The notes beneath the pieces are model-generated. The model ran no database searches. It saw only the letters and a list, made by a program, of their open reading frames with translations, and was not told where the DNA came from. Shown one piece after another: positions 3,763-52,618 of a stretch of 64,000 bases of DNA (the stretch's first letter is position 1; each line of letters opens with the position of its first letter). This stretch comes from a virus. Both the position numbers and the translations under genes were made by a program. The DNA lies in the IMG/VR virus record IMGVR_UViG_3300046167_000032, positions 1 through 64,000 of that record; one strand, 5' to 3'.

Positions 3763-3773
3763 TTTTATTTCCT

Positions 3774-10642: not shown

Positions 10643-10668
10643 ATTAATTCCTACTGTTACAGATATAA

Positions 10669-10690
10669 GTGGGCTAGTTTCCCAGCCCAC
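10669..10690 (-). promoter_or_regulatory. Hairpin between capsid and adaptor genes
   Basis: GTGGGCT and AGCCCAC (7 bp) enclose an 8-nt loop, 16 nt past the capsid stop codon in the transcription direction. No T-run follows on the minus strand, so it is a poor intrinsic terminator. It could protect the 3' end of capsid mRNA or be a processing site that raises capsid over adaptor expression. Confidence 0.5.
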
Positions 10691-10705
10691 CTACAGTATT
10701 TTATA

Positions 10706-11776: not shown

Positions 11777-11943
11777 TTTAATTCTCCTTTAGCATTAGAT
11801 TACAGATGCAAACGACTATTCACTTATATAGAGGCTAAGTACTTGTAGGGTGCGTTACTATGAAAGTTGGCCTACCTTCAGTATAACGGGCCATAAGACA
11901 TTAGGTTGTCAAGAAGTATTTTGTTGTTTGCGTGGGTTTAGTC

Positions 11944-11980
11944 GTAGTGTGAGTAACCTGTGTCTTAGGGGTCACACTAC
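11944..11980 (-). promoter_or_regulatory. 5'-leader hairpin of capsid mRNA
   Basis: GTAGTGTGA and TCACACTAC form a perfect 9-bp stem around a 19-nt loop. It lies a few nucleotides downstream of the predicted start of the capsid transcript (about 11989) and about 170 nt before the capsid start codon. A 5'-terminal stem of this kind commonly stabilises phage late mRNA. It could also be a regulator site. The whole 11777-12028 gap holds no gene. Confidence 0.55.
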
Positions 11981-11995
11981 TACATTGTACATATA

Positions 11996-12023
11996 GTTAT
12001 ATCATAAATATATTATATGTCAA
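11996..12023 (-). promoter_or_regulatory. Sigma70-type promoter for the capsid gene
   Basis: Read on the minus strand: TTGACA (12023-12018), a 16-bp spacer, TATAAC (12001-11996). Five of six bases match the -10 consensus and all six match the -35. It lies in the only sizeable gap of the structural block and points at the capsid gene. The predicted transcript starts near 11989, giving a leader of about 210 nt. Confidence 0.7.
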
Positions 12024-12028
12024 TAGCT

Positions 12029-12901
12029 TTATCGAGCATTGCCCGACATATCGTAAATAAACTTACCAGTACGAATGGCTTCCATAATAGCGTCAGAAGC
12101 TTTTTCATACTGTTGTGCTGTCATCTTATTCACTTGTGATTCTTTAAATACATTCTTAGAATCATCTGAATCAGGTGTAGCGTTACTACGACTGTTTACT
12201 GAACGTGCGGCATCTTTATTGTTGCTCGCAGGTTTCTTTGTTTGAATATTCATATCAGCTTTATACAAATCAATTGCACGTGCGGCTGATCGTGAGTCAC
12301 TAGCATTCTCATATAGAGCATCCTGTACCCACTTAGGTTGTTCATCTACCCAATTATGAAACGCATCATCATCTCTAATCTCACCAAAGTCAGGGTGTGC
12401 AGTCATTAACTCTACTTCAGCTTTCTTGCGTGCCGCATCAGCTTTCATTTCATCAATTTCTTTTACACGTTCTTCTAATCCAGCAGCTTGTTCTTTTGCT
12501 TTTTTGATTGCAATAGTTTCTACTATAGCCGCTACATCTGGGTATTGTTCTGCCCAAGCTTCAATGTCTCCATCAGACTTAGGTAGTTTAATTTCTTGTT
12601 TAGTTGAGTCTTCAAGTTGACGTTGTAACGTTTTAAACTTGTCATCCCAATCTTTTTCTTTGTCTTGCATATGTCGTCTAAGATCACCGTAGCGTTTCTT
12701 AAAACTTTTTTCTTCAGCATTAATAGGTTCAGCTTCAGCTACTTCCTCTGTAGCTTCTGTTGTTTCACCTTTTTGTTCAGCAATAAGTTGTTCGAGTTCT
12801 TCCTCTTCCATCTTACGCTTATCTTCATTAGAGTATTTACGATTTGCAAATGCAACTTTAGTTTCTGGCTTTACTTCTTCTGCCATTATTTTATCATTCA
12901 T
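12029..12901 (-). CDS. Scaffolding protein
   Basis: 290 aa, acidic and Lys/Glu-rich with long helical, coiled-coil stretches (about 25-110 and 130-165). There is a short C-terminal helix-turn after a Ser/Asn-rich linker. A PDFGEIRDDDAF...W segment is typical of marine phage scaffolds. It lies immediately upstream of the capsid gene and is separated from it by the capsid promoter. It would be transiently incorporated in the procapsid. The start could also be the internal ATG at 12886; neither has a strong ribosome site. Confidence 0.7.
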   Translation of the reverse strand: MNDKIMAEEVKPETKVAFANRKYSNEDKRKMEEEELEQLIAEQKGETTEATEEVAEAEPINAEEKSFKKRYGDLRRHMQDKEKDWDDKFKTLQRQLEDSTKQEIKLPKSDGDIEAWAEQYPDVAAIVETIAIKKAKEQAAGLEERVKEIDEMKADAARKKAEVELMTAHPDFGEIRDDDAFHNWVDEQPKWVQDALYENASDSRSAARAIDLYKADMNIQTKKPASNNKDAARSVNSRSNATPDSDDSKNVFKESQVNKMTAQQYEKASDAIMEAIRTGKFIYDMSGNAR

Positions 12902-12979
12902 GTTTCAGTCTTTCATACTGGGGCCGCCGTAGCCTAGTGTTGGTAGGGGGATGGGTAGCCAGTTCAAATTTAGCAGAGG

Positions 12980-13189
12980 TTAAATAATTGGTGCTGCTAA
13001 TCCACGTCTTACAGGTGCTGTAGGTTGTTCTGTTTCTGGTGCACCTAAATCTAATAGTTCACTTCCTAGTATACTTATAATAGTTTGTCCTATAGGAGTT
13101 CTCATTAGTTCAATTATTTGTTGTTGATCTTCTTCTGCTAATGCATCAAACCTACTTGACACACTAAGTTTATATTCTTCAAAATCCAT
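12980..13189 (-). CDS. Small conserved structural-region protein
   Basis: 69 aa from ATG 13189 (MDFEEYKLSVSSRFDAL), with GGAAT upstream; a longer in-frame start overlaps the previous gene without a ribosome site. It is mostly helical: a DALAEEDQQQIIELMRTPIGQTIISILG helix pair, then a Pro-rich tail. It has no recognised domain. Its place between the large virion protein and the scaffold suggests a head-assembly role. Confidence 0.6.
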   Translation of the reverse strand: MDFEEYKLSVSSRFDALAEEDQQQIIELMRTPIGQTIISILGSELLDLGAPETEQPTAPVRRGLAAPII

Positions 13190-13190
13190 A

Positions 13191-16100
13191 TCATTTATTC
13201 CTAAACATTTTGTATGCACCTACTAAGTAACAGATTGGTTCTAATATAGCTCTATAGAAACGTCCTAACTTATCACGTTTTTTATTTTGCATCTCTGCTC
13301 TAAGGTCTGCAGTACGATGTCTCGCAATATTCTCTAGTGTTTTACGCACATACTTATAATCTTTTTGATATGCAAGTTCTACTAAAGGTAGGAATAATGT
13401 ATGGTATCCTACTTCATGTTCTTTTGTCAAGTTATTATTTGAGTATTTTAACCACACAGCCTGACGGTATGAACCAAAGCCATAAGACTCATTCATAGCA
13501 GTACATACTATTTTACTACTACTACTATTTCCTTTATTACCACTATCTTTATTGCTTTTTGTTTTTGTTACAGGTGCTGCTTTAGTTTCTTTCTTTGGGA
13601 ATGTACGAGTTAATACATTAGTTCCCGGTTGACTAGTCCATACTGCACCTGCCATATTAGGATCACCACCACTAGCATCTGTACCAATTTTAGCTTTAGC
13701 AGTTTTAGATAACTGATTCTTTTTAGCTGGTGTGACAGCAGTTTTCTTATTCGTACTTGCAATACTTGCTTCTTTGTCATTAAACTTACCAGCAGGTTTA
13801 TATTTATCAGCACCTTCAAATACTCTTTCGTAAACTGTAGATTTAACTACTGGTACATCATAATCATCATTTCTATAAACAACTCTATTTTCTGCATTGC
13901 GTAATGCAAACCCTTCTTTATCTGCATACACACCTTGTGATTTACCATCGGTAATAGCACCAACAGCATAACCATCTACTGCAGTACCACCCGTTGTTGC
14001 ATACCTTCTGTTTAAGTCAGCGGCTTGTGCTAAATTTGCGTCTGGTAAGTTTTGCCATGCTGTAGCTTGATTAGAATCACCAGCTTTATATGTTTGAGCA
14101 GGTGTAGATGTTTTAGAACCTAAACCACTTGGGCGCATCTTAGGTGTTGCTGATGTAATACTTAAAGGTATTTCTGAAGCATTAGTTCTAGCTGCACGAT
14201 CCGCATCTGTAGTATCTACTAATGAAAAATTAGTTCTAGCGGCTTTTTCATCCTCAGTGTTAATTTGTGGAAATGGGCTATATCCATCATCTGCTGTTAC
14301 TTGAGATGGGTCTGCGCCTCTTGGTGGTATAGGTGCTGTATAACCTTCACCATAGTTAGAAGCAGAACCACCACCAACAGTAGCTGTTGTCGGAAATACC
14401 TGAGAGTTTCTTTGTAAATCAGTAGGTGTATATGTACCTGCTCTGGGGTCTGAAGCAGTAAATGCAGGATTTGTAGCGTCTGTTGGGAAGTTATATACTT
14501 GATCTGGAAAAACATCAGGTTGTTGATCTGCTCTTGGTGGTAGCATATCGTTATTAAAAAATTTATTAGTGGCTTCTAAGTCTTGTGTGGGAGGTAATAA
14601 ACTATCTATATAATTATCTTTACGTGTTACACCCCTAGTTAAATTAAAAACATCTGTACCCATTATATTATCTGCAGTTGGTTTTTTACCAGCTAATTGA
14701 TTTTTAAGGGCTTCATTAACACTATTAGTTGGTAGTTGTGTAACTGGGAAAGTACTAGTTTCACTAGGGTCATTACTGGCATTTGTAAATGGTAAAGTAC
14801 TGGTTGCACTAGGATCACCGTATGCGTCAGTACGTATAGGTGGAGTTGGTCTATAACCATCATCTGCTGTTTGGGGTGGTGGTAAAAACCTATCTTTTTC
14901 ACTACTTGCTAGTGTGTAAGGATCAGGTGTAGATGTAACTATAGGAGCTTCTAATTGTTCTAAACCAGTTAACTCTGGTGTAATAATAGGCGTAGTAGTA
15001 CCTGTTGGTAGTTTAGCACCCACACCTGCTACAGATACTGTAGATGCACGTTTGGCTTGTTCTTCTGGTGACATATCTCTGTAAGTTGTAAGTGGAGTAC
15101 CTTGCAATGCTTTAACAGCACCTACTGGTGCAACATCAGCCATTGCTTCTCTAGCTAAGTCATAATCATCTGGAAGAACACCTCCAGTTGGTGCAAAGAC
15201 TGCATCTGATAAAGCTTGTCGTTGCTCTTCTGTGACATTGCCCCTTACTTTATTTGTAAGCATCTCTGTCATTTGTTGATCTGTAGTAGTTGCAGGTACA
15301 TCTTTCAATACGGATTCTACAGCATCTTGTACAGAAACAGTAAGTTCAGTAGCACCTGACGTTGGGTTTACTCTAAATATTGGAAGATCAGTACTTGTTT
15401 TCTTATCTACTTCAACACTAGTCTTTTTAGCAGCTTCAATCTCTTCTGGTGTTTTGCCTAATAAACCACCTATAAAATCTACTACACCACCAATTAATCC
15501 ACCAGAACCTTTTGCTAACAGACCAAGAACCTCTGTAAACTCACCCTTTAAATCCTTTCCAATAATACCAGAGGCTATTCGTTTATTAATAGTATCTTGT
15601 ATTTTTTTACTTTGATGTGACATAGCCATCATACCAAAAATACCTAAAGGTCCCATAAAACCCATTGCAACTTTTACAAGAGTACCCTTTGTACCCGTTT
15701 GATCTTGCGCAAGTTTTAACAACTCTTCATTACTAATATTATCATAATCAACAGGTTTAGGGGCTACTGCAACGTCAGTACGATCATCACTACCTCTTGA
15801 ACGTATTTCTTGCGTAGCGGCATTAGTATCTGCGACTATATCATCGGTTGGTGTAGTACCTGTACCTACAGAACCTTCACCTGTATACAAGAAGTACCCA
15901 TCTGGAATAGGGAATGTAGCTACACCACCTATGAATGGTATCATAATATTATTACCAGCTGCATTACGATATTCTTTGTATTCAATAGCAGCTTCACCCA
16001 TAAGTTTCTTGAAGTCTATTGTAGTACGTACAGGTTGTGTAATCTCTGGTGTGAGTCTACGAGTAGCTGTTGTAGTAGGTGCAACAGGTTGTCCACCAGT

Positions 16101-24686: not shown

Positions 24687-24702
24687 AGTCCCACATTGGA
24701 CT
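24687..24702. promoter_or_regulatory. AGTCC-N6-GGACT palindrome, copy 1 (degenerate)
   Basis: AGTCCCACATTGGACT, two bases off the family consensus AGTCCAAYGTTGGACT. It lies upstream of the first early promoter, unlike the other copies, which precede ribosome sites. Confidence 0.5.
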
Positions 24703-24719
24703 TAATTTGCTCCATATAC

Positions 24720-24769
24720 TACTACGTAGTAAAATAGGTGTTGACACCATCGGATTTATCTGATCTAAC
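24720..24769 (+). promoter_or_regulatory. Early promoter/operator cassette, copy 1
   Basis: A perfect 12-bp palindrome TACTACGTAGTA (24720-24731), 9 bp, then TTGACA (24741-24746) and a conserved TTATCTGAT segment. No good -10 is present at 17 bp (TCTAAC). The whole arrangement recurs at 26710-26759 with the same spacings. A weak -10 next to a palindrome suggests activation or repression by a phage protein. It drives the gene at 24819. Confidence 0.6.
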
Positions 24770-25497: not shown

Positions 25498-25513
25498 AGT
25501 CCAACGTTGGACT
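25498..25513. promoter_or_regulatory. AGTCCAAYGTTGGACT palindrome, copy 2
   Basis: AGTCCAACGTTGGACT, a perfect 16-bp palindrome ending 22 nt before the start codon at 25536, with GAAAGGA between. Confidence 0.75.
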
Positions 25514-25674: not shown

Positions 25675-25869
25675 ATGTTAATTGAACGTAAATCAATTTA
25701 TTCTGGCACTATAAGTGCAATGGATATTGATGTAACACCAACGCAGATTAATGCATGGTACTGGCAGGGTGAGCTTATCCAAAATGCTATGCCTAACATA
25801 TCTGCACAAGAACGTGAGTTCATTGCTACAGGTATCACACCCACAGAGTGGGACGAAATGTTTAACTAG
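25675..25869 (+). CDS. Conserved small early protein
   Basis: 64 aa. The form ERKSIYSGTISAMDIDVTPTQINAWYWQGELIQNAMPNISAQEREFIATGITPTEWDEMF recurs, as I recall, in phages of several types with unknown function. Its TAG stop codon overlaps the first bases of the next palindrome. Confidence 0.65.
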   Translation: MLIERKSIYSGTISAMDIDVTPTQINAWYWQGELIQNAMPNISAQEREFIATGITPTEWDEMFN

Positions 25870-25883
25870 TCCAATGTTGGACT
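25868..25883. promoter_or_regulatory. AGTCCAAYGTTGGACT palindrome, copy 3
   Basis: AGTCCAATGTTGGACT. It overlaps the upstream stop codon (TAG) and ends 22 nt before the next start at 25906. Confidence 0.75.
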
Positions 25884-26468: not shown

Positions 26469-26484
26469 AGTCCAATGTTGGACT
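26469..26484. promoter_or_regulatory. AGTCCAAYGTTGGACT palindrome, copy 4
   Basis: AGTCCAATGTTGGACT, ending 21 nt before the start at 26506, again followed by GAAAGGA. Confidence 0.75.
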
Positions 26485-26703: not shown

Positions 26704-26709
26704 TACTAC

Positions 26710-26759
26710 TACTACGTAGTAAAATAGTGCTTGACAACAGGTTGGTTATCTGATTTGTT
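26710..26759 (+). promoter_or_regulatory. Early promoter/operator cassette, copy 2
   Basis: TACTACGTAGTA (26710-26721), 9 bp, TTGACA (26731-26736) and a TTATCTGAT segment, as in 24720-24769. The 15 bases TACTACGTAGTAAAA are identical in both. Palindrome copy 5 lies 17 bp beyond the cassette, near the predicted transcript start. Confidence 0.6.
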
Positions 26760-26775
26760 GTTAAGCATCGGAACT

Positions 26776-26791
26776 AGTCCAACGTTGGACT
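26776..26791. promoter_or_regulatory. AGTCCAAYGTTGGACT palindrome, copy 5
   Basis: AGTCCAACGTTGGACT, about +10 of the transcript expected from the promoter cassette at 26710-26759 and 23 nt before the start at 26815. Confidence 0.75.
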
Positions 26792-27630: not shown

Positions 27631-27792
27631 ATGAAGAACTTTATTAAGTTCACTAAGTCCAATGTTGGACTAACTACTAAGAAGAAGAAGCCTAAGCGTG
27701 ATGATTGGAAGCGTGAGCGTTCAACAGCACGTAAGATTAAAACTAATATGCAAAGAGGCATAACAGATTACAAACCAAAACGTATAGCATAA
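27631..27792 (+). CDS. 53-aa very basic protein carrying a regulatory palindrome in its codons
   Basis: Read directly: 53 aa with 20 Lys/Arg (KKKKPKRDDWKRERSTARK). ATG 27631 is preceded only loosely by GGAGG at 27604. The palindrome AGTCCAATGTTGGACT (27656-27671) is translated here as KSNVGL. It could bind nucleic acid. The gene call is less certain because start signals are weak, and the palindrome may be the reason this segment is conserved. Confidence 0.45.
   Translation: MKNFIKFTKSNVGLTTKKKKPKRDDWKRERSTARKIKTNMQRGITDYKPKRIA
27656..27671. promoter_or_regulatory. AGTCCAAYGTTGGACT palindrome, copy 6 (inside a small gene)
   Basis: AGTCCAATGTTGGACT. Unlike the others it is not just upstream of a start codon; the next start is 135 nt away. 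Confidence 0.7.
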
Positions 27793-27806: not shown

Positions 27807-28133
27807 ATGACTACTATTTCAAAACCACTAGTAAAGAACACTAACCCAGAACTATATGTGAAGCACACAGCACACATGTCAAGAGCAGGTATTCATACCT
27901 ACAACTATGCGTCTGTTGATGATTACATTCTACAGAACTGGAGAGTGTCTACTATAAAACAGATTGCATCTGACTTAAACGAATACCCTAATCGTATTGT
28001 ATATAGGGTACAAGTACTACAATCTGTAGGTTTAATAGGTAGCAAGTACACTACTAAGCGTGCTACATTGAAGACACAACAAAAGATGCTTGTCACTTGG
28101 TTGGCAGATATCAAACAACAATTGGAGGCGTAA
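27807..28133 (+). CDS. Winged-helix/HTH-like early protein
   Basis: 108 aa. The part NWRVSTIKQIASDLNEYPNRIVYRVQVLQSVGLIGSK (about 45-85) reads as a helix-turn-helix with a wing, so DNA binding is likely. AAGGAG precedes ATG 27807. Sitting among palindromic sites, it is a candidate regulator of them. No named family was recognised. Confidence 0.6.
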   Translation: MTTISKPLVKNTNPELYVKHTAHMSRAGIHTYNYASVDDYILQNWRVSTIKQIASDLNEYPNRIVYRVQVLQSVGLIGSKYTTKRATLKTQQKMLVTWLADIKQQLEA

Positions 28134-28381: not shown

Positions 28382-28618
28382 ATGCCTGTTATGGCATATG
28401 AAGTCACGTTAGCCATTGACAGTGAGAATACTATCGTTAAGTTAGATGATACGTATCCTTCTGTAAGTGACTGGCGTACAGCTTCGGAGTTTGCTATTCA
28501 TATGATGATGCGTAGCAAACCTGATTCACGAGTTGAGTTTGTCGATTGTAGTGAGAGAGTACATGAGGTATACTCATCATGGGGATACATAAGTGAAACC
28601 CCACCATCAATTCAATAA
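28382..28618 (+). CDS. Small early protein, unknown
   Basis: 78 aa, alpha/beta (YEVTLAIDSENTIVKLDDTYPSVSDWRTASEFAIHMM...SRVEFVDCSERVHEVYSSWG). Its stop codon TAA touches palindrome copy 7. Function is unknown. Confidence 0.6.
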   Translation: MPVMAYEVTLAIDSENTIVKLDDTYPSVSDWRTASEFAIHMMMRSKPDSRVEFVDCSERVHEVYSSWGYISETPPSIQ

Positions 28619-28633
28619 GTCCAACGTTGGACT
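28618..28633. promoter_or_regulatory. AGTCCAAYGTTGGACT palindrome, copy 7
   Basis: AGTCCAACGTTGGACT, overlapping the upstream stop codon and ending 21 nt before the start at 28655, with GAAAGGA between. Confidence 0.75.
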
Positions 28634-28654: not shown

Positions 28655-28963
28655 ATGCATTGGGATACATACTTAGTTGATTTAGATATACCAAAAGAAT
28701 GGAAGTGTACAAGCCATCATCATGATGAACTACCAAGCTACCAAGTAAATGGTCTACACATATGGATGGGCAGCCATGATGCAAATGTGCGTGAGGCTGA
28801 TGCAAAAAACATTTGGGGTACAGATTGGGGTATGTTTACACGTTTCATAGTTCAATTGGCAAGCACCTACAATGGTGAGTCAGATGATCATGCATGGCTA
28901 TGTAGTACTGATAGCTTTGAAGAGCTACAACAATTTGTAAAGGAATATAACAATGAAGATTAG
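28655..28963 (+). CDS. Early protein, unknown
   Basis: 102 aa, acidic, with a His cluster (TSHHHDELPSYQV) and W-rich middle (IWMGSHDANVREADAKNIWGTDWGMFTRFIVQLA). It overlaps the start of the methyltransferase by 11 bp. No family was recognised. Confidence 0.6.
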   Translation: MHWDTYLVDLDIPKEWKCTSHHHDELPSYQVNGLHIWMGSHDANVREADAKNIWGTDWGMFTRFIVQLASTYNGESDDHAWLCSTDSFEELQQFVKEYNNED

Positions 28964-29117
28964 AACACAACTATCCTTATGTGATGGCTTATCAGGTGGT
29001 CAGATAGCAGGTGATAAGATAGGCTTACGTGCTGATACTTATATAGCTAGTGAGATAGACCCACATGCTATTAAAATTACACAGAAAAATTATCCTGAAC
29101 ACTGTACAAGTAGGTGA
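28953..29117 (+). pseudogene. C5 DNA methyltransferase, N-terminal fragment (before frameshift 1)
   Basis: 54 aa from ATG 28953. It carries motif I of cytosine-5 methyltransferases (LSLCDGLSGGQIAGDKIG, the S-adenosylmethionine site) and the following acidic strand (ASEIDPHAIKITQKNYP). The frame then runs off and stops at 29117. Dropping one base at about 29100 joins it to the next fragment as NYPE-TVQVGDMTEW, the expected motif II/III sequence. Confidence 0.75.
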
Positions 29118-29520
29118 TATGACTGAGTGGAGATCATGGGATATTGATTGGTCTAAAGTTGATCTAGTTACAGCAGGTTTCCCGTGTCAGGCATGGTCAG
29201 TTGCAGGTCAACAGAAGGGTGATCGTGATCCACGAGGTCAATTGTTTTGGGTAGTACTAGACATCATGCAACATGTGCTAGAGCACAACCCTAATGCTAA
29301 GTATCTAATGGAGAATGTTAGAATGTCGAATGCTTTTGAGGAGTACATCACGTATCACACTGAGCAAGCATTGCCTAATGTAAACAAGTACCTAATCAAC
29401 AGTGCGCTAGTGTCTGCACAGAATAGGAAACGTTTCTATTGGACTAACATCGAAGGTATTCAACAGCCAGAAGACAAAGGTATAGTATTGAAAGATATAC
29501 TCGAAGGATGGTTTGACTGA
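29065..29520 (+). pseudogene. C5 DNA methyltransferase, catalytic fragment
   Basis: This frame is meaningful from about 29100. It contains the catalytic motif IV AGFPCQAWSVAG with the nucleophilic Cys, motif VI-type ENVRMS and the motif VIII-like QNRKRFYW. Together with the flanking fragments it makes a complete Dcm-like enzyme of about 365 aa that would methylate cytosine and shield phage DNA from restriction. The apparent ATG 29065 is in the out-of-frame part and is not a real start. Frame 2 is lost at the GG at 29506-29507. Confidence 0.8.
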
Positions 29521-30058
29521 CAGAACTAAGTCACATTGTCTTGATGCTAACTATTTCAAGGGTGGTAATCTCAAGTCATACTTCGAGAAGCATCGCAGAC
29601 AGTTGGTGTTTAGTCCTAGTGGTATGTGCCACGTAGGTGACGCTGATTTGAATGGCAATCAGTCTATCAAGCGTGTGTATGCAGCCGAAGGTAAAGCACC
29701 TACCTTGACTACTATGGGTGGTGGACACAGAGAACCTAAAGTATTGGTGAAGGGTGGACGTATGGTTGGGCGTAGACTAGATGCTAATGGTACTCGTAAA
29801 GACTATGACACATCTATACCAATCAAACAGATGATTGAAGTTAGAGAAGATGATAAAACTAATTGTCTAACTACAGTGACTAAGGACAGTATCTTGATTG
29901 AGGATATGTCTTGGCGTAAGCTAACACCATTAGAATGTGAACGCTTACAAACAATACCAGATGGGTACACTGAAGGTGTATCAAACACACAGCGTTACAA
30001 GATGCTCGGTAATGGGTGGACTGTAGACGTGATAGCACACATATTGAAAGGGTTATGA
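29513..30058 (+). pseudogene. C5 DNA methyltransferase, C-terminal fragment
   Basis: Target-recognition part plus motifs IX and X (WRKLTPLECERLQTIPDGYT; YKMLGNGWTVDVIAHIL). Removing one G at 29506/29507 gives ILEDGLTDRTKSHCLDANYF across the join, typical of this enzyme class. No good independent start is present (TTG at 29513). The three fragments together span 28953-30058. Whether the shifts are real decides if the phage makes an active enzyme. Confidence 0.8.
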
Positions 30059-31500: not shown

Positions 31501-31898
31501 TGCCTAAGCTACCTAGATATGTACAAGAGAGAGTATCACCTCACGGGGTGATCTCTTACAGATTTAATCCGCCGCAGAACTTAGTGGATGAGGGTGTGGT
31601 ATCACGTCAAGAGTATGGCACTGATCTCAAGGAAGTGCGTAGTATTGTGAAGGAGTTGAACGCAGACATTGACCATTGGCGTGAACAAAAAGCGACAGTG
31701 GTACAGATAAAGCCATCAAGTAAGGTGACAGATTTGATTAACTACTACTATCAATCTAATGATTTCAATATGTTACGAGACACAACTAAGGTGGATTACA
31801 GATACTTCCTAACCATACTCCATCAGACTATGGGTGGTAAGAAGTACGACAGTGTAACAACTAAGGTTGCCAAGCAAGCATATGAAGGAGTGGGTTAA
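31500..31898 (+). pseudogene. int: Tyrosine recombinase (integrase), N-terminal fragment before frameshift
   Basis: 132 aa. It holds the arm-binding start and the SAM-like core-binding domain (SSKVTDLINYYYQSNDFNMLRDTTKVDYRYFLTILHQTMGGKKYDSV). It ends soon after an extra G at 31887/31888; removing it reads KQAYEEWVKRGISFANHAATC without a break into the next frame. Translation is coupled to the DUF932-like gene. Confidence 0.75.
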
Positions 31899-32622
31899 GC
31901 GTGGTATTAGTTTCGCTAATCATGCTGCAACATGTGCAAGTAGGGTATACAACTACGCTATTGACATGGAACATGCCACACAAAATCCTTGGACTAGCAT
32001 CAAGCGTAAGGCATTGCCACAGCGTAAGGTTGTATGGTCACATGGTGATGTTGTCAGGTTTCTTGATTATTCGTACAGCGATTTTGACTACAGGAATGTG
32101 GGATTGATTGTGCACATGGCATATGAATGGTGTCAACGTCTAGGTGACATGCGTACACTGAAGTGGGAGAACATTGACTTGCGTACACAGCGACTAGAGT
32201 TAGAGCAGAGTAAGCGTAGGGCAGATGTATCACTACCAATATCAGATGATCTATGCCACATGCTGAATGAACAGCGTAATGACTTTGGCTTTCAAGATTA
32301 TGTAGCACCACACCCACGACCAATGGGCGGTAAGTACCAACCATATGCAATGGAACGTTTGTCTAAGGTAGGTAGACGTGTCATGAGATTAGCTAAGTTA
32401 CCAGAAGAGTTACGTCTAATGGACTTACGTAGAACAGGTGTGACACAGATGGTTGATGCAGGTGTACCAATTGGACAAGTGATGTCTGTTACTGGACACA
32501 ATCATGTGTCTTCTGTGCAACCATATATGAAACATACATATGATTCTGCAAATAATGCCTTGACACAGAGAAATGTAAGTGTACAATCGAGTGCAGCGAG
32601 TAACATAGAAAGTGATACATAA
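31867..32622 (+). pseudogene. int: Tyrosine recombinase (integrase), catalytic fragment
   Basis: The catalytic domain of a tyrosine recombinase. Arg in WCQRLGDMRTLKW, Lys in the beta-hairpin (QSKRRADVSLPI), Arg in LMDLRRTGVTQM, His in VTGHNHVSS and nucleophile Tyr in QPYMKHT are all visible. The His normally preceding DLRRT is Met here. An in-frame ATG at 31882 could start a catalytic-only protein but lacks a good ribosome site. The full gene would be about 373 aa and would allow integration if the frame is intact in nature. Confidence 0.8.
32560..32587 (+). promoter_or_regulatory. Sigma70-type promoter before primase
   Basis: TTGACA (32560-32565), 16-bp spacer, TACAAT (32582-32587), lying in the last codons of the recombinase. 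Transcription would start near 32594, 28 nt before the primase ATG, so the replication genes can be expressed separately from the recombinase. Confidence 0.6.
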
Positions 32623-43011: not shown

Positions 43012-43250
43012 TGTTTGTGGTAATATCCAGAGACAATTGTAGCTTTTGTAATATGTCAAAAGATTTAATATATCTTTACAATCAAAGTTACAGAGAGTAT
43101 AATGTGGAATCAGGCAGTTCAAAATGGATACTGTCTTTATTAAAAAAGGCAGGGTACAAAACTGTACCTCAAATATATGCTCCCGATGGCTCATACATCG
43201 GGGGTTATGAATCACTACTAACCTATATGAAGGAGAATCACAATGGCTAA
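43011..43250 (+). CDS. Glutaredoxin
   Basis: 79 aa with the CSFC redox motif (C10/C13), the cis-Pro loop (TVPQIY) and GGYESL, the standard glutaredoxin pattern. It would regenerate the C-terminal thiols of the adjacent ribonucleotide reductase. The start overlaps the reductase stop (TAATG) and the stop overlaps the next gene by 8 bp. Confidence 0.9.
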   Translation: MFVVISRDNCSFCNMSKDLIYLYNQSYREYNVESGSSKWILSLLKKAGYKTVPQIYAPDGSYIGGYESLLTYMKENHNG

Positions 43251-43455
43251 AGTAACGATAGATGAGGTTGAATATGAATCAGATGATTTTACAGATACTC
43301 AGAAGAATCTTTTACAAGAGATCACAATCAATAACAATATCCAATCACAAAAGAACTACGAGATACACTGTCTCAAGTTCACTAATGAAACACTGGTGGC
43401 TAAACTAAAGGAAGAGTTAAACGCACCAGAAGCTGAAGAACCTAAGAAGGAATAA
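43243..43455 (+). CDS. DUF6447-like small protein
   Basis: 70 aa, helical and acidic: AKVTIDEVEYESDDFTDTQKNLLQEI...IHCLKFTNETLVAKLKEEL. Similar proteins are frequent in marine phages next to redox or structural genes. The family name is from memory. Function is unknown. Confidence 0.6.
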   Translation: MAKVTIDEVEYESDDFTDTQKNLLQEITINNNIQSQKNYEIHCLKFTNETLVAKLKEELNAPEAEEPKKE

Positions 43456-44046: not shown

Positions 44047-44080
44047 AAAAAAGAAGGGGCTTAATTGCCCCTTTTTCTTA
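44047..44080. terminator. Bidirectional intrinsic terminator
   Basis: AAGGGGC (44054-44060), loop TTAATT, GCCCCTT (44067-44073), preceded by an A-run and followed by TTTTTCTTA. The A-rich left side acts as the U-run for minus-strand transcription. It lies between convergent genes: mazG ending at 44044 and the large virion gene ending at 44101. Confidence 0.85.
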
Positions 44081-44100: not shown

Positions 44101-47100
44101 TTACATAGCTTTACCATATCCAATCAACTCTATTAAGTTGTCAATAGCTGTATCAACTTCTTCTTCAGTGCTACCTGATATACTAGGTTCATGATTATTA
44201 CTATCGAAGAACTCACTACTAGCAAATCTACGTTGAGCTTTAGTTAGTTTGGCATACTGTGATCGTAACATTGCTAACTCACTTGTGTCTTCAGACATAT
44301 CCATAGATACACTACTCTTTAAGTTATTTATTTCTTTCTGTAGCTTACCTCTTAACGTATTATTTATATATTGATCTTCTGTATATTTCTTTTTAAATGG
44401 ATCGTCACTTGGGCGTTTATTATATTCTTTACGTAAACCTACTTCTAATCCTTTAAAAATATCTACTATACTAGGTAAAAACTCTTGTAAAATTTTGTTT
44501 TCTGCCCTACGTGTACTAGACATACGTGATCTACTACCCAGTTCAAACTCTGTAAATCCTTTATCTGTTAAGTATTCTCCATACTCTTCATCCTTAGTAA
44601 ATTTTGTTATACCAAGTAACAAACTACTCATCAAACCTTTACGTTCTTTATCGGGAGAGAATACAAACTCTCTTTCAGTTTCATCAAACTCTTCGCTTGG
44701 TCTGAATATATTACTAACACCACGTTGCGCAAACCCACGTTTAATTTCACCTAATATAGAAGGAGCTTCATCAGTAGATTTATCTATATATGTAGAGGGT
44801 CTGTAACCAGTAACCCTCTGTGCTTCTACCACCTGAGTTATGGGTATAGCCCACGTAGTCAAGTAATCTGCTATCAACCTACCTGCTGCCTTTTGTAACT
44901 TTTCTTCGCCAACAAGATCACCACCATCAGAAAGTATATTTGAAATCTCATTTATAAAAACATTTGATGCGCCCGTTCTAGCCGAAGCACCTAAGAAAGT
45001 TTCGGATGCTTCTTTAGCATCAAACCAATCCATAAATGTACCTGTACCCGTATCTTCTTCTTTCCTACCCATAAGAGAACCAATTTTATTTGCTACCACA
45101 ACTCTAGGTATATATTTTTGAGCGTCAGGGTCTAATCTTTTAGCTGCTTCTGCCATCCATAAAAATTGTCTCATCGGATACTGTGCTGTAACATCTATAA
45201 CATTACCTTCTTCAGCATTAATCTCTTTATATTCGGCAGGTGCATCTTCTGATGTGCGGTACTGATAGGCGGCAGTAAAAGCCACAATACCACTAATATT
45301 ACGTGATATATTCTGTCTATCTTTAGCGTCTAACGGACCTTTCTTAGCACGAGTCACTCGTTGTATTGCTGGCATAAACGCACCACCAGAGTACTGTCCC
45401 ATTAATTCTATTGAGTTAAACATAAACCTTGGGAATGGTGTAGTGAATGCAGTTAAACCATTACGTGTTAAAAAGTTAGCTGTTTCTCTAAACAAAGGTA
45501 CGTCAGGCGCTTTTGCATATGTAACATCTAACGCTTTACGTGTACTATCTTCTATCAATTGAGCAAACTGAGGTGTACCTTTAGGTCTATACTTACTAGA
45601 GTTAGACATCAACTCATTCAAGTCACCTTTCTTTAAGACATCCATTAATTCTACACCATAGTCTCTTAACACTAGGCGTTCAAGCTCACCCATAAATACA
45701 CCACGGCGAATAACAAACTCCTGTATTCTGTTAGGTACATTTAACATATTGACTACGTCTTCACCTCTACTCAATACAAAATCTGTAACACCACCCTTGC
45801 CTCTACCTGTAGCAGTTTGATATTCATTTATATTATCAAATAAAGCTGTGAATTGATTACTAAACTCAGGTCTGTCTAGCAAATAGTCTGTTATTTCTTT
45901 AGCCTGTATTGGATTTGCGTACATTCTTTTTAGTGCTCGTGTACTACCCTTCCAATTACTAGGAGATACAAAAGTTTTAGCACCCGTAGCCATTGCCTTA
46001 GCACCTGCTAATACCTTACCACTACCTGTGGTATCAGCAAACTCTTGAGACATTTTGTAAAGTGTTGTATCAAAGACGTTCTCTAACGCTTCCATAGGAG
46101 TTCTTATCATAGCAGATTGAAAGTTACGTGCTGCAGTTTTTATCATAGAAACCATAGTACCACGGCGCATATTCTCTACTCTACGCCATGCCTTTACTAT
46201 TTCACTTTGCCCTTTTTCAATCATGCGCTCTTGTGCGTTTGCTATTTCATCTAAAGAACCTGCACGCCTTATTTGAGACAACTTGTTTAATATCTTACCA
46301 GCCTCAGAACCAGAACCTACAACTGTAAGAACATAATCATCAAAAGTTAATCCATATTTAGCCAAAGAGTCTGCTAAATCCTGACTCTCAACAAGTTTAT
46401 CATCTACAGTTAATCTAAATAAACTGTCAACAATACTCTCGCCTTTTTTAAACTCATTTGGATTTGCTTTTTTAAAGTCTGAAGCAACTGCTACAATAGC
46501 ATCAAATTTTTCTGGTATAAGTAGTGGGCTAACTAAGTCATCAACCTCATCTGCCATACCACTGTATGCCTGTGCCTCACTTACACCTGTCTCTCTGTAC
46601 AGGGCATCTTTTTCTCTTTGTTTACGTAGTCTTTCATTCTTAGATATATTATTGCCAGAAATACCAGAGTTTTCAATCTTTGCATATCTCTCAGCTATAG
46701 ATGTTTGTAGTTCAACTACATCTTTAGACACTTCTTTACCTGCTACACGAGCCAGATCACCATCTATTACTTTATTACCTTCTTTACCAGTAGATATAAC
46801 TTTACCTGTAGACTCTTCAAACTCTTTTATTAACTGCTGTGATAGAGCCTTATTATCTTCAGCCACTTTCTTGGCTGCAAGCCTCTTAGCTGCAATAGTT
46901 TCTGCATCAGCTTTAAGTATGCTAGTCATTTGTTCACTAACACCACCCTTGAGAAATTTTGTACCCTTACGTACTACTGTACCAGTACCTAATGCGGAGG
47001 CAACCATTTCAACTGTGTTTATACCTACATACTTAGCGGCCTCACCGTATTCACCACGATCATAGAACAATTTAGCTTGCCTAAAATTTTCTGGTACATC

Positions 47101-47760
47101 CATTAGACCCATAGCCGCACCAAGAAATGGTGTAAACTCTACGCCATTTATAATAGCATTAATGTCTGTAGCTTTCATGCCTTTGTCTAGCATAGCACTA
47201 GCCATACTTGAGCGTATAACATTAGGGCCATTAAGCATATTATTAACGTCACTAACAGCATCTTTAAAGTGTTGACCACGTGTCTCGGCTAATGTACTTG
47301 TAAGCTCTGTACCTTGTGGCTTAGGCATTGTCAGTGCTGTTTGTGTCCCATACTTCTCATCGTATGCTTTCGCATTTGCAAATCGTATATTGTAGTTATC
47401 TATCTGTGCTTGTGCGTCTTTCATAGCATCATCTTGATATGCCTGTGCATCACCTAAACCTTGATCAATTTGTGAGGCTAGACGTGGGTCAAGTTCTGAA
47501 ACCTCACCATCATCATTTAAAGTTTCCCTAACTACATTCTCAGTACCCACAACAGATGGTGCTTCAAGACCCCCTATAGTTGGCAGTTTACTTGCACTAG
47601 AAAATATACTTTCTTCATCTGTATCTATAGTAACAGCTTCTTCTTCTTCTTCTGGTATTTCCACATTTAGTAGTTCTTCATTTTCTTCTGAAGAAGTTTC
47701 TGCATCACCAATAGTAGGAAGTTCATTTATATTAGAAAATATACTTGTTTCTTCTTCCAT
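44101..47760 (-). CDS. Large internal-virion-type protein
   Basis: 1219 aa. An acidic N-terminus (repeats of SIFS....LPTIG at about 6 and 51) is followed by long helical regions rich in Lys/Glu/Ala (about 280-520), then a mostly helical core with RGTMVSMIKTAARNFQSAMIRTPMEALENVFD and FPRFMFNSIELMGQYSGGAFMP. I recall the same order in marine podoviruses as an ejected inner-capsid or DNA-ejection protein. No lytic transglycosylase motif was recognised. It is the last gene of the leftward block. Confidence 0.65.
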   Translation of the reverse strand: MEEETSIFSNINELPTIGDAETSSEENEELLNVEIPEEEEEAVTIDTDEESIFSSASKLPTIGGLEAPSVVGTENVVRETLNDDGEVSELDPRLASQIDQGLGDAQAYQDDAMKDAQAQIDNYNIRFANAKAYDEKYGTQTALTMPKPQGTELTSTLAETRGQHFKDAVSDVNNMLNGPNVIRSSMASAMLDKGMKATDINAIINGVEFTPFLGAAMGLMDVPENFRQAKLFYDRGEYGEAAKYVGINTVEMVASALGTGTVVRKGTKFLKGGVSEQMTSILKADAETIAAKRLAAKKVAEDNKALSQQLIKEFEESTGKVISTGKEGNKVIDGDLARVAGKEVSKDVVELQTSIAERYAKIENSGISGNNISKNERLRKQREKDALYRETGVSEAQAYSGMADEVDDLVSPLLIPEKFDAIVAVASDFKKANPNEFKKGESIVDSLFRLTVDDKLVESQDLADSLAKYGLTFDDYVLTVVGSGSEAGKILNKLSQIRRAGSLDEIANAQERMIEKGQSEIVKAWRRVENMRRGTMVSMIKTAARNFQSAMIRTPMEALENVFDTTLYKMSQEFADTTGSGKVLAGAKAMATGAKTFVSPSNWKGSTRALKRMYANPIQAKEITDYLLDRPEFSNQFTALFDNINEYQTATGRGKGGVTDFVLSRGEDVVNMLNVPNRIQEFVIRRGVFMGELERLVLRDYGVELMDVLKKGDLNELMSNSSKYRPKGTPQFAQLIEDSTRKALDVTYAKAPDVPLFRETANFLTRNGLTAFTTPFPRFMFNSIELMGQYSGGAFMPAIQRVTRAKKGPLDAKDRQNISRNISGIVAFTAAYQYRTSEDAPAEYKEINAEEGNVIDVTAQYPMRQFLWMAEAAKRLDPDAQKYIPRVVVANKIGSLMGRKEEDTGTGTFMDWFDAKEASETFLGASARTGASNVFINEISNILSDGGDLVGEEKLQKAAGRLIADYLTTWAIPITQVVEAQRVTGYRPSTYIDKSTDEAPSILGEIKRGFAQRGVSNIFRPSEEFDETEREFVFSPDKERKGLMSSLLLGITKFTKDEEYGEYLTDKGFTEFELGSRSRMSSTRRAENKILQEFLPSIVDIFKGLEVGLRKEYNKRPSDDPFKKKYTEDQYINNTLRGKLQKEINNLKSSVSMDMSEDTSELAMLRSQYAKLTKAQRRFASSEFFDSNNHEPSISGSTEEEVDTAIDNLIELIGYGKAM

Positions 47761-47764
47761 TTAA

Positions 47765-48880
47765 TTACTCCGCATTAAAAAATTTAGCATCTACATTAGC
47801 CGCATTTAGATAACTTGGTATGCCTAAATCTTTGTATGTACTACCAACGTATGTACCTATTAAGTAACCGCCTTCGGGATTAGCAACTGCATAAACAGAA
47901 CCTATAGGCAATGCACCACTAGCTGCGGCTTCTTTCATAAGAGTTTCACTCTCAAACATTTTATACGTGTCTTCATCTTTTGATAATATTTTACTCTGTG
48001 CGTAATTGTCTAAAGTAACCTTAGCATTTTTTGCTATAGCTTTAATTTCACCATATAGAGATTCTTCTTTTGCAACAACATCGTTTTGATTTTGTAGCAT
48101 AATTGCTGTATCTAACTCTGCCATACCTAGCTTATTAGTACCTTTATACTTGCCTACTAATTGTCCCATAGAACCCACAGATAAATCTAAAGTATTTCGT
48201 GCTATAGTACGTTGATTCTTTATTAACTCTAATCTTTGAGAAGGGCTATAAAACTCTTTTATACCATCTACATCATCTGGCTTACGCTTGGCATCCTCTA
48301 ACTTAGAAGCCTGTGCAAAAAACTGTCTTTCTTTTTCATCTACAATAGCAATTTTATCGGGATCATCACCTGCATCAATACGTTCTTGTAATAGTGCTAC
48401 CTGAAAGGCTGCTATAGTTTTAAACTCTTTCGTTGGTTTTATTGGTGTAAATCTACTAGCAAAACTATCAATACCCATTCCTTCTGGAACATCTGCTGTT
48501 TTAGATATTTCACCAATACTTGTTGTATTTGCTGTGTCTATACTAGCAATATCATTATTAGGCATAGTATACATAGAGGAAGCAGACATACCTTTTTCAT
48601 CATAAAACTTTCCTTTACTTACAGCATGTGCAACAGCAATTTTACCCCTTGGTACTATGTCTTCTATTTGCTCAGGTGTAAAATACAAAGATAAACTTTC
48701 TACTAAGTTATCTGCTATCTCTTGTTCTTCATCACGTTTGGCTTGTTTAGCTAACCTCTGACGTGTTGCAATCATAGCTTCATCGTCTGCTAACTTGTTT
48801 ATACGATCTCGTTTATCATCTAAATCTTCAGTAAGTTTTTTAGCAAAACCAGCACCAAATGCTTGTAAGTTAAATGCCAT
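47765..48880 (-). CDS. Virion-associated protein, unknown
   Basis: 371 aa. A helical Lys/Asp/Glu-rich N-terminus (GAGFAKKLTEDLDDKRDRINKLADDEAMIATRQRLAKQAKR) suggests a long coiled coil like ejection proteins. The C-terminus is compact (ASGALPIGSVYAVANPEGGYLIGTYVG). It lies 4 bp upstream of the 1219-aa gene and overlaps the preceding gene by 1 bp. A particle component is likely. Confidence 0.65.
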   Translation of the reverse strand: MAFNLQAFGAGFAKKLTEDLDDKRDRINKLADDEAMIATRQRLAKQAKRDEEQEIADNLVESLSLYFTPEQIEDIVPRGKIAVAHAVSKGKFYDEKGMSASSMYTMPNNDIASIDTANTTSIGEISKTADVPEGMGIDSFASRFTPIKPTKEFKTIAAFQVALLQERIDAGDDPDKIAIVDEKERQFFAQASKLEDAKRKPDDVDGIKEFYSPSQRLELIKNQRTIARNTLDLSVGSMGQLVGKYKGTNKLGMAELDTAIMLQNQNDVVAKEESLYGEIKAIAKNAKVTLDNYAQSKILSKDEDTYKMFESETLMKEAAASGALPIGSVYAVANPEGGYLIGTYVGSTYKDLGIPSYLNAANVDAKFFNAE

Positions 48881-49404
48881 TATACTCTCCTTGCCATAAG
48901 ACCACTAGGCTGTGGCTCTTCATCAACTGTATCTTCCATAGGCATATCAGATTTTTCATCAACTTTAATATTGTCTATTGCTTTAGGTAATCTTTCACGC
49001 ATCTTTTTCATGGCTATTGCAATCTTAGACTCACTAATTTTATCTTCGTCAACAGCTTTTTCAGTACCTAATGTATATTCAATACCAGCTTCATCACCTA
49101 TAAATGCAAGCATCTCAATGATTACAGGCATAGCTAATATACCTACGTCTATTGTATGTAACCCCTGCATCACCGCCGTTGATTGCATTGAGTCTGCCAT
49201 AGTTGTTAGTGGTATACCCAGTTCCATACTGTCGAGTAGTGCATCGTAAACATCGTCAGATGTAAGTCTTGGTATATAAAACTCAAGTGCTTCTTCTACT
49301 GTGTTATACTTTGGTGGGTTCTGCCAAGGTCTACCGCCAACTTCAGCAGTCATGCCTTGTCCGGGAATAGGATAGTTAAAAGAGGGAGAAGGTTTATCGA
49401 CCAT
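48880..49404 (-). CDS. Conserved marine-phage virion protein
   Basis: 174 aa. The N-terminus DKPSPSFNYPIPGQGMTAEVGGRPWQNPP followed by TVEEALEFYIPRL is a pattern I recall from many marine phages, including cyanophage-type ones. A hydrophobic helix (about 85-110, HTIDVGILAMPVIIEMLAFIGDEAG) may interact with the membrane. Function is unknown. Confidence 0.7.
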   Translation of the reverse strand: MVDKPSPSFNYPIPGQGMTAEVGGRPWQNPPKYNTVEEALEFYIPRLTSDDVYDALLDSMELGIPLTTMADSMQSTAVMQGLHTIDVGILAMPVIIEMLAFIGDEAGIEYTLGTEKAVDEDKISESKIAIAMKKMRERLPKAIDNIKVDEKSDMPMEDTVDEEPQPSGLMARRV

Positions 49405-49609
49405 TGGTAAGTTGCTTTCTCTTTTTACGGATAGAGGTTACATAGTCTCGCACTCTATCAATTGGTTCATTTAATTTTTCTTTAGGTTCAGCTTCACGTT
49501 TACGAGATAGAAGACCCATACCCATAGAAGATTTCTTAGGCATATCTTCAAGTTCTGCATCTGTAATGTTTAAGTTTGAATATGCTGTAACTGCTGGGTT
49601 AATATTCAT
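49394..49609 (-). CDS. Small conserved protein of the virion block
   Basis: 71 aa, with a basic KKSSMGMGLLSRKRE segment and a helical tail. It overlaps the next gene by 11 bp. The KKSSMGxGLLSR pattern recurs beside the preceding family in other phages, to my recollection. Function is unknown. Confidence 0.6.
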   Translation of the reverse strand: MNINPAVTAYSNLNITDAELEDMPKKSSMGMGLLSRKREAEPKEKLNEPIDRVRDYVTSIRKKRKQLTNGR

Positions 49610-49621: not shown

Positions 49622-52048
49622 TTATCCTAAGATTGCACCTATACCCTTACCAAGTAAGGTATCGCCACCGATAGGTGATGTAAACATTGTAGCTACTAAA
49701 CCACCCCATGCAGATGCAGAGTTATAGTCAGCTTGTAGTGCCGCAATATCTGCTTTAGCATCTATCTGTAGTTTAATTGAAGCTAGATCAACAATACGTT
49801 GTCTTTCATTTTCAGCACTATTCCATGCCCACTCCATACTATCAGAGTAGTATGACCACAAATCATTGTATGCAGTATTAGATATGTCAAGTACATTCTG
49901 TGCATTGATTTCATTAGCACGATTGATTGCTACAGTATCTGCAGTAGCAACTTGTCTACGCCACTGTGCATTATTCTGATCAATAACTAATCTATTTTGT
50001 GCATTGAACTGATCACGTTGATTCATCATCTCTGCCGCAAATCTATTCTGTGCGTTCATCTCACCTGCATTAAACTGGTTCTGTGCATTAGTTTGTGCAG
50101 TATTAAACTGTGATGTTTGTGCGGCTAAGTTAGCAAAGAACTGATCGGTTTGATTTTGACTTGATGCATTAAACTGTGCCGCCGCATTAGTTGCCGCTTG
50201 ATCTGTAAACAAAGACTGTACTTGTTGTTGTGATTTAAACAACTCAGTTTGTTGTATGTTACTCAAGTTAGTTAAGTCCATTTGCATAAATGCTTGTGCA
50301 TTCATTACAGCCGCTTGTTGTCGATTACTTAGGTTAGCCATATCTAAGTTAGACAATGCCGCTGCTTCTGCCATTACCATAGCTTGTCTATTAGACAGGT
50401 TAGCTATATTAACAGTGTTAGCATTACGACTATTCTCCAAAGCAACCTGTTGTTCAGCAGTGAAGTTCATATTAGCTACGTCACTAATCTTACTGGCATT
50501 CATAACACGTGATTGGAATGCCTGATCAAACTCTTGACCCATGAATGTTGCACGTTGCTGTGCCGCAAGCATAGCACGTTGTTGTCTGTTTGACAAGTTC
50601 TGTGTTTCAAAGGATGCTTGTGTCTGTGCATCAGCCATTGCGATAGGTAATGCTGACTCCATAGCGGCCTGTACAATGGCTTGACCTGCCATACTACTAG
50701 CACCTAAGCCACGTGCCGCCATAGTCGCTGTAGCAGTCCTCATAGCCCCTGCAGCCCATGCTGGTGTAGCTCCACCCTCAAAGTTTGTCATTAATGTGTC
50801 AAGTTGCCCTGCCACAGTAGCTTTCTGAGATGGTGATGCAGTAGCCGCTTGCACTTCTTCTGTAAATTTAGCTGCAGTTTCAGCATTTGCTACACCACTT
50901 ATAAGTTCACCATTTTCAATCTTACGCTGTACTGGGTTCTCCATTAATATGGATGTACCTTGTGCCGCATCTAACTCACTTACACTAGTTGCAGTTGCAG
51001 TCTTAGCATCTACAATAGCTTGTGGATTAACTGTACCTGTAGCCGCTTGTGTTTGTGCCAGTGCTTTTGCTACTTCATCTGCCGATGTAGCCGCAGTCAT
51101 AGTAGCCGCATCTGTAGGTGCAACAGCACCAGCTTGTGCAACAGTAGCTGTAGTTACAGGAGTAGATATATTACCTTCAACCTGCCCACTACGAGGATCA
51201 ATTATCTGATCACTAGTTATCTGCGTACCTACAGGTTGTACTGTAGCACCATAGGCTAGTGATGGATCAATAGCTCTATTAGCAATTAACTCAGATACAG
51301 ATTGACCTTCATATGCACCTGTCTGTGGTACACCACCGACTGAAGTACTTGTACTTTGAGTACTGTTTGCGTTTATATTTGGCGTAGTATCACTGGGGCC
51401 GGGACCTCTTGCAATAGCATCTGCAATAGCCTTAGCTTCAGCAGGTGATTTTACATCACGTTGTGCCTGTCTACTGACAGCCTGATCATATGTGTAGTTA
51501 TATGTCTGTGGGCTTGTATTAATTGTACCCATATTACCTTGCGCATCTATAGGACCTGTACGTGGGTCTAAAGTTCCTGATTGTTTAGCTAAATAAGCTT
51601 CATATGCTTTATCTTGCGCCTTACCAATACTACCAGAACCCATCTGACCAAAGTAAGGGCTATAGTACATATCTTGAGTACCCATAGTATTACTATTTTT
51701 AAAGTCTGTGTACTCTTGTGAATTGAAAAAGTCTTGGTTTATTTCTGGTAATCGAGGGCGGTTTAATATACCATCAGTCTTTGAACCTTCACCTGCAAAC
51801 ATGTTAGGTCTAATATTCATTTGAGAACCAGTAGCTGATGTAGTCACACCACCAACAGCATAGCTAGGTTTCTTTACCATACCACCCTTAGCCATTTCCA
51901 TAGCTTTGTTTTGATACATATTCATCTTACTCATTTTATCAGGGTTCTGATTTAAGTAATCATTAAAGCCACTCATATCACCTTGATAACCTAAGTTACC
52001 TGCAATGCGTTGCATAGCCTGTGGTTTAAATCCTTTGAACTGCATCAT
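49622..52048 (-). CDS. Large virion protein with NLSNRQ repeats
   Basis: 808 aa. An N-terminal basic helix (QFKGFKPQAMQRIAGNLG) precedes KGGMVKKPSYAVGG, then a long Ala/Thr/Gln-rich stretch. At about residues 495-640, at least four NLSN(R/I)QQ units alternate with helices (LSNRQQRAML, LSNRQAMVM, LSNRQQAAV, LSNIQQTEL). Gln/Asn/Phe repeats follow, then a Trp-rich C-terminus (LWSYYSDSMEWAWNSAENERQ). It looks like a rod or sheath-like helical protein, possibly ejected. It has its own perfect promoter. Confidence 0.65.
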   Translation of the reverse strand: MMQFKGFKPQAMQRIAGNLGYQGDMSGFNDYLNQNPDKMSKMNMYQNKAMEMAKGGMVKKPSYAVGGVTTSATGSQMNIRPNMFAGEGSKTDGILNRPRLPEINQDFFNSQEYTDFKNSNTMGTQDMYYSPYFGQMGSGSIGKAQDKAYEAYLAKQSGTLDPRTGPIDAQGNMGTINTSPQTYNYTYDQAVSRQAQRDVKSPAEAKAIADAIARGPGPSDTTPNINANSTQSTSTSVGGVPQTGAYEGQSVSELIANRAIDPSLAYGATVQPVGTQITSDQIIDPRSGQVEGNISTPVTTATVAQAGAVAPTDAATMTAATSADEVAKALAQTQAATGTVNPQAIVDAKTATATSVSELDAAQGTSILMENPVQRKIENGELISGVANAETAAKFTEEVQAATASPSQKATVAGQLDTLMTNFEGGATPAWAAGAMRTATATMAARGLGASSMAGQAIVQAAMESALPIAMADAQTQASFETQNLSNRQQRAMLAAQQRATFMGQEFDQAFQSRVMNASKISDVANMNFTAEQQVALENSRNANTVNIANLSNRQAMVMAEAAALSNLDMANLSNRQQAAVMNAQAFMQMDLTNLSNIQQTELFKSQQQVQSLFTDQAATNAAAQFNASSQNQTDQFFANLAAQTSQFNTAQTNAQNQFNAGEMNAQNRFAAEMMNQRDQFNAQNRLVIDQNNAQWRRQVATADTVAINRANEINAQNVLDISNTAYNDLWSYYSDSMEWAWNSAENERQRIVDLASIKLQIDAKADIAALQADYNSASAWGGLVATMFTSPIGGDTLLGKGIGAILG

Positions 52049-52066
52049 TCTTCTATCTTCCTTATG

Positions 52067-52080
52067 TTGTCATGTGACAA
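52067..52080. promoter_or_regulatory. Inverted repeat at the transcription start of the 808-aa gene
   Basis: TTGTCA-TG-TGACAA, lying directly after the -10 box and covering the expected start (about 52074). That is where a repressor would block open-complex formation or where the RNA start could fold. Confidence 0.6.
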
Positions 52081-52109
52081 ATTATACTCTATCTTAATAT
52101 CTGTGTCAA
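52081..52109 (-). promoter_or_regulatory. Consensus sigma70 promoter for the virion block
   Basis: Minus strand TTGACA (52109-52104), exactly 17 bp, TATAAT (52086-52081): a perfect consensus promoter, pointing to 52048 and the genes down to 44101. It is the strongest promoter I can read in the window. Confidence 0.85.
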
Positions 52110-52117: not shown

Positions 52118-52618
52118 TTAATCTGCTAGTGGATTATCTAGTGCACGTTGTAATTTAGTTACTAGTCTATCTTCTAGTTCTTTCATTTCTGAAGACTGTG
52201 ATGCCCTTACACGTTCTCGTTGATTCTCAAACCTTATTTCAGCATCATCTATCATAGTACGTACCTTGTCTTCATTGTCACGTACCATATCCTCAATACG
52301 ATCTGTCTGTTGTTCTATTCTTAACAGATCATCTTTCAGACCATTCTTAATATCTCTAGTGTACTCTACACTCTCTTCAACCTTCTCAGATATACCAGAC
52401 ACTTTAGCATCCATTACATCCATTTGTTGTTGATATGCACCTAAGTCTAACCCTGCAACTTCTTCTATCTTTTGGTATAGAGTGAAGCCACCATACAGAC
52501 CACCAACTACTGTAGACAAGAAAGCTATTATAGCTAGTACTGAACTTGCTGTTAGTTTTACACCACCAGCTTTTACTTCTTTATCTGCTAGGCTTTCAAC
52601 GTTTGTTAAATCTACCAT
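52118..52618 (-). CDS. Membrane-anchored coiled-coil protein
   Basis: 166 aa: an N-terminal segment with one transmembrane helix (about 24-44, LTASSVLAIIAFLSTVVGGLYGG), then about 115 residues of charged coiled coil. The design resembles the 88-aa protein (690-956) on a larger scale. Such proteins occur in many marine phages. It overlaps the preceding gene by one base. Function is unknown; a role in envelope penetration or lysis is possible. Confidence 0.7.
   Translation of the reverse strand: MVDLTNVESLADKEVKAGGVKLTASSVLAIIAFLSTVVGGLYGGFTLYQKIEEVAGLDLGAYQQQMDVMDAKVSGISEKVEESVEYTRDIKNGLKDDLLRIEQQTDRIEDMVRDNEDKVRTMIDDAEIRFENQRERVRASQSSEMKELEDRLVTKLQRALDNPLAD

Follow-up and report, generated by a model that had tools for sequence, protein, structure and literature searches.

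The stretch of viral DNA analysed here (‘the window’) is 64,000 nucleotides long and corresponds to positions 1 to 64,000 of IMG/VR record IMGVR_UViG_3300046167_000032. The record comes from a marine podovirus of the HMO-2011 type. Its coat protein shares 85% identity with that of Roseobacter phage CRP-1; its terminase, portal, helicase, polymerase and ribonucleotide reductase match phage families; and, set against five isolates, its gene table shows the conserved genes in the known order within a unit of ~55 kb (group range ~53–56 kb). The whole record (80,374 bases) makes ~1.46 laps of this genome, window positions 1–13202 repeating positions 54568–68631 of the record. Since the repeated parts are only ~95% identical and carry different tail-fibre genes, the assembly joins two strains. 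DNA-metabolism genes occupy the plus strand and structural genes the minus strand. On the plus strand are also a tyrosine integrase (31867–32622; Pfam PF00589, E 6e-18) and a C-5 cytosine DNA methylase whose sequence is spread across three reading frames (28953–29117, 29065–29520 and 29513–30058), broken or frameshifted in the assembly.

A promoter and an inverted repeat before a structural-half gene

The feature under study lies within the minus-strand cluster, and is read on that strand. The –35 hexamer TTGACA (52104–52109) is separated by a 17-bp spacer (52087–52103) from the –10 hexamer TATAAT (52081–52086), which is followed directly by the inverted repeat TTGTCACATGACAA (52067–52080), whose arms TTGTCA and TGACAA flank a central CA. 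Next come a Shine–Dalgarno-like AAGGAAG (52057–52063) and, 18 bases downstream of the repeat, the ATG at 52048 of a gene for a protein of 808 aa (49622–52048). The earlier note on this DNA had reported the promoter and repeat without naming a strand; its positions and sequence were correct. Upstream, a gene for a 166-aa protein (52118–52618, minus strand), with one transmembrane segment and a coiled coil by eye, stops 8 bases before the –35 box, and no terminator intervenes. Downstream, four more genes, encoding 71, 174, 371 and 1219 aa (44101–49609, minus strand), complete the cluster. They run to a terminator-like hairpin at 44054–44073 (44051–44076 as a two-sided structure), where the plus- and minus-strand gene blocks meet. 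None of the five genes behind the promoter matched a Pfam family, and none of the four scanned, the 808-aa gene included, matched a PHROG. Homologues of the 808-aa protein occur in the structural half of HMO-2011-type phages. It is plausible that the gene is ‘late’, as the earlier note supposed, because it lies in this half, on the strand opposite to the replication genes.

The promoter is of the sigma70 type, matching the consensus hexamers at 12 of 12 letters with 17 bp between them. The window has one instance of TTGACA-N15..19-TATAAT, where shuffles lead one to expect 0.22. This is the sole perfect consensus match, the runner-up among intergenic candidates scoring 10/12. The repeat, too, is solitary. 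The window holds no second site within two mismatches of the 14-mer, and the 80,374-base record no second exact copy of TTGTC-N4-GACAA. Eighteen of 18 site-bearing contigs searched whole have one site each; the palindromic one can be read on both strands.

Conservation of the pair among relatives

Relatives of the 808-aa protein were gathered by protein homology only, and the 160 bases before each start codon were scored, for about 75 distinct upstream regions in all. The outcome was two-peaked. Nineteen distinct regions have a promoter at the start codon; the other regions, about 55, have a weak promoter or none, and at most 9/11 operator letters within the 160 bases. The earlier note had suggested a repressor at the repeat, and proposed asking whether the promoter is conserved where the repeat is not. 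The idea survived: all 19 start-codon promoters have the repeat, each with 11/11 operator letters, and no promoterless relative has it. In one of the other regions (L433), a 12/12 promoter-like match without the repeat is found 70 bases upstream of the gene, within an upstream reading frame. Two further groups (L019/L154; L090 with its copies) also retain the promoter, ahead of a protein that is longer or different. Added to the 19, they give the set of 21 distinct promoters used below. When sequence collections were scanned with the left arm left free, the matches at homologues of the 808-aa gene were all two-armed; with the right arm free, the same was true of those at such homologues among the matches listed.

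In this set the –35 hexamer is TTGACA in 21/21, and the –10 hexamer is always TATAMT (TATACT in most relatives), at a spacing of 17 bp, or 16 bp in one group. The spacer is otherwise variable (1/17 positions invariant; mean 0.74 bit), only the A-G adjoining the –10 box being conserved, and the leader, with its Shine–Dalgarno-like motif, is variably conserved (1.09 bit). The operator has 11/14 positions invariant and a mean of 1.8 bit. A tree of the protein's conserved core (82 rows) requires at least six gains or losses of promoter and repeat, compared with ~21 for shuffled labels, and three of these are forced by well-supported branches; the two therefore came and went together, as one unit. 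In lineages without this module the gene usually follows directly after the previous gene. Joint conservation rules out a chance origin for the pair. The dyad alone is not very improbable, a 5+5 dyad being expected by chance somewhere in a random 16-base block in ~4% of cases, and so the evidence is the conservation rather than any single sequence. Because relatives keep both elements or have neither, the two probably form a genuine on/off switch.

The conserved unit, TTGTC-N-Y-ATG-R-CAA, is less symmetric than the window's own copy suggests. Its arms are 5 bp long (TTGTC at positions 1–5 and GRCAA at 10–14) around a 4-base centre in which position 6 is free, position 7 is always a pyrimidine, and positions 8 and 9 are always A and T. 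The 6-bp arms described by the earlier note are found only in the clade of the window and in a single further sequence (3/21). Four of the five conserved pairs hold in 21/21; the fifth, pair 4–11, holds in 17/21, and is broken in the other four, members of one clade, by a right arm of GGCAA, with G in place of A. No compensating, two-sided change at this pair occurs among the 21 sequences. To the right of the dyad, conservation extends into Y15 and A16. The fixed A-G before the –10 box, the A-T in the centre, and the Y-A after the dyad mean that symmetry is not the whole cause of the conservation. A pyrimidine and an A, seven and eight bases after the –10 box, are present in 21/21 sequences, and Y-A at that distance is a normal start site. 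From the alignment, transcription is predicted to start within the repeat, at the C/A of 52073–52074, and the conserved block would then be an operator laid over an initiator.

What might read the repeat

The best reading of the block, judged by its sequence and conservation, is a DNA operator over the start site. A dyad that overlaps a promoter and is conserved with it, as in repressor-controlled promoters, is present here, with one pair broken in 4/21. We give an even chance to the following, fuller account: that a promoter for host sigma70 serves the final gene block in the structural half, and is overlapped at its start by the operator TTGTC-N4-GACAA, to which a repressing protein binds. 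This protein, a DNA-binding dimer and most likely a phage product, would occupy the repeat and keep the host RNA polymerase from starting. When the protein was absent or released, the promoter, which would need no activator, would fire at full strength, and its output would add to, or replace, read-through from the distant start of the late cluster. We infer the start site, the binding of a protein, repression rather than some other effect, and the timing. The solitary copy in each genome counts against the operator reading, as phage repressors often have several operator copies; a multi-site operator is ruled out. A literature search for operators or repressors with a TTGTC/GACAA palindrome gave no obvious match, as judged from the result list.

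The chief rival dispenses with a regulator. The block would be conserved for the needs of RNA polymerase (discriminator, start and first bases), or as the mRNA 5' end AUGRCAAYA, and the dyad would be coincidental. The asymmetric centre, the conservation that runs past the right arm, the modest improbability of a chance dyad, and the uncompensated change at pair 4–11 all agree with this. Against it, unrelated phage promoters have the same –35 and –10 boxes without the block, which is therefore not imposed by general requirements of the polymerase. We know, moreover, of no discriminator preference for TTGTC at –6 to –2. We regard this rival as a real possibility, though on the unlikely side.

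That a host regulator reads the repeat, such that the phage gene follows the physiology of its alphaproteobacterial host, we consider quite improbable. The spacing of TTGNN-N4-NNCAA resembles that of FNR/CRP-family boxes, and roseobacters have many members of this family. The half-site, however, is invariably TTGTC/GRCAA, and differs from the TTGAT of the FNR/CRP-type box (TTGAT-N4-ATCAA). Sought in 84,980 bacterial and archaeal genomes, the complete promoter–operator was matched only once. The match lies in front of a LexA-like gene, has an SOS-like repeat of its own in the spacer, and is probably due to chance.

No better supported, to our minds, is action of the repeat as RNA, either because UUGUC-N4-GRCAA folds upstream of the ribosome site in read-through transcripts, or because the ATG at the start site opens a leaderless mini frame coupled to the gene. 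The broken DNA pair would become a tolerated U-G pair in RNA, and the transcript here would begin at AUG, like those from the many phage promoters with a leaderless ATG 7 bases after the –10 box. Such consensus promoters for leaderless messages occur in many unrelated phage contigs (e.g. L209, L224, L233 and L259), which have TTGACA-17-TATAAT with the ATG of a gene (MAKELTTI...) 7 bases on. But the predicted hairpin is weak (–3.1 kcal/mol for the 14-mer alone) and impossible in the transcript that starts at this promoter, and covariation is absent. The mini frame (ATG ACA ACA TAA in the window) varies from 3 to about 17 codons among relatives. A known RNA element was also sought, and Rfam gave no match.

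Least probable is that the site binds an activator or architectural protein, or marks, for example, a recombination junction: the neighbouring genes just upstream of the promoter do vary between relatives, but a promoter that matches the consensus perfectly has no need of activation, and an activator site would be unusual if centred on the start.

The earlier note had proposed a search for a phage helix-turn-helix (HTH) protein, and this yielded one candidate, a 108-aa protein of the early region (27807–28133, plus strand) identified by eye and by predicted structure. In the model (pLDDT 77) three helices follow one another in HTH order, and a core of ~44 residues aligns with regulators of the Lrp/AsnC and MntR types at 1.4–2.3 A, with E-values >0.4. 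Each contig that has the promoter and extends over the early region encodes the protein, but so do the operator-free CRP-1, CRP-345, G039, G043 and G045. Co-occurrence does not, therefore, tie it to the start-site operator, for which it is a weak candidate. The suggestion of a repressor at the repeat is supported as regards the DNA, in that repeat and promoter are conserved together and elsewhere absent together, which fits an operator, but is not strengthened by this candidate. Surveys of the small genes with Pfam and PHROG showed no regulator among the families listed. A 70-aa acidic protein (43243–43455, plus strand) is present in 11/11 operator-bearing, and 0/11 operator-free, genomes or fragments. 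As a regulator it was rejected: it does not resemble a DNA-binding protein, and shared ancestry can explain its distribution.

A second palindrome, and comparison with known systems

The early genes of the window have a palindrome of their own. Seven copies of AGTCC-N6-GGACT (24687–24702, 25498–25513, 25868–25883, 26469–26484, 26776–26791, 27656–27671 and 28618–28633) are found among them, six of which read AGTCCAAYRTTGGACT; five of the seven precede a start codon by 21–23 bases, next to the Shine–Dalgarno sequence on its upstream side. Arrays of GTCCRA-YR-TYGGAC, with 4–8 copies each, occur in CRP-1, CRP-345 and most of the relatives examined. The array of HMO-2011 is AGTCCGACAGCGGACT, also in 4–8 copies, and relative G041 has TGTAACGGCGTTACA instead. 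Copies in the same genome tend to agree at the variable letter, which is A or G according to the phage, and the partner base is matched. The off-centre bases of HMO-2011 are found in either orientation (ACAG and CTGT), which suggests that the array is recognised as DNA rather than as RNA. Two 48-base stretches in the same region (24717–24764 and 26707–26754) are copies of one another, 79% identical, of the form TACTACTACGTAGTAAAATAG..TTGACA..TATCTGAT; they are likely to be early promoters with a TACTACGTAGTA palindrome upstream.

Of the 12 compared genomes with the GTCC early array, 11 encode the HTH-like protein, HMO-2011 being the exception; it was not found in compared genomes without the array. 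Because it correlates better with this multi-copy palindrome, the early array is a likelier target for it than the start-site operator. As a reader of the array's variable letter it was rejected: identical HTH proteins accompany AGTCCA and AGTCCG arrays, and so cannot tell these apart. The array may be an immunity-operator or stoperator-like array. It recalls the stoperators of cluster A mycobacteriophages in that many copies of a short site lie in small gaps beside start codons in integration-capable phages, but differs in being a palindrome; stoperators are asymmetric and bound by a monomer (PMC9283540). We think it unlikely, if conceivable, that the two kinds of site belong to one lysogeny circuit, in which a phage repressor would silence the early genes at the palindromes ~22 bases before their starts, and a second repressed site would hold the structural promoter. 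Were this so, the circuit would supply the regulator so far missing for integrase-carrying HMO-2011-type phages.

The HMO-2011 type ranks with the most abundant phages of the sea; many of its members have an integrase, and integration has been demonstrated for CRP-3 (PMC6918029, PMC9038755). The words ‘promoter’ and ‘repressor’ are absent from the main text of two main papers on these phages, and the literature we searched yielded no description of a regulator or repressor for them. The conserved promoter–operator pair offers a defined 14-base DNA target with which to find one. HMO-2011, CRP-1 and CRP-345 have coat, portal and terminase genes related to the window's, and the same gene order: a homologue of the 808-aa gene, three or four more genes, and a convergent mazG. 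The promoter and repeat, however, are missing from the CRP and HMO isolates checked, in which the homologous gene follows directly after the previous gene, or is fused upstream; a motif scan of these isolates found nothing except one unrelated, GGCAA-armed match in CRP-13. The pair also divides lineages with separate control of these structural genes from lineages that lack such control.

What lies at the locus is, then, a real, conserved and regulated-looking promoter of a known kind, for which we infer a repressor. Lambda PR and PL, and lac O1, likewise combine consensus –35 and –10 boxes with a dyad over the start, and by analogy with these, steric block of RNA polymerase would be the natural reading here. 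The present site differs from them in being a single, short one, with 5-bp arms and a 4-base centre, placed before a gene of the structural half.
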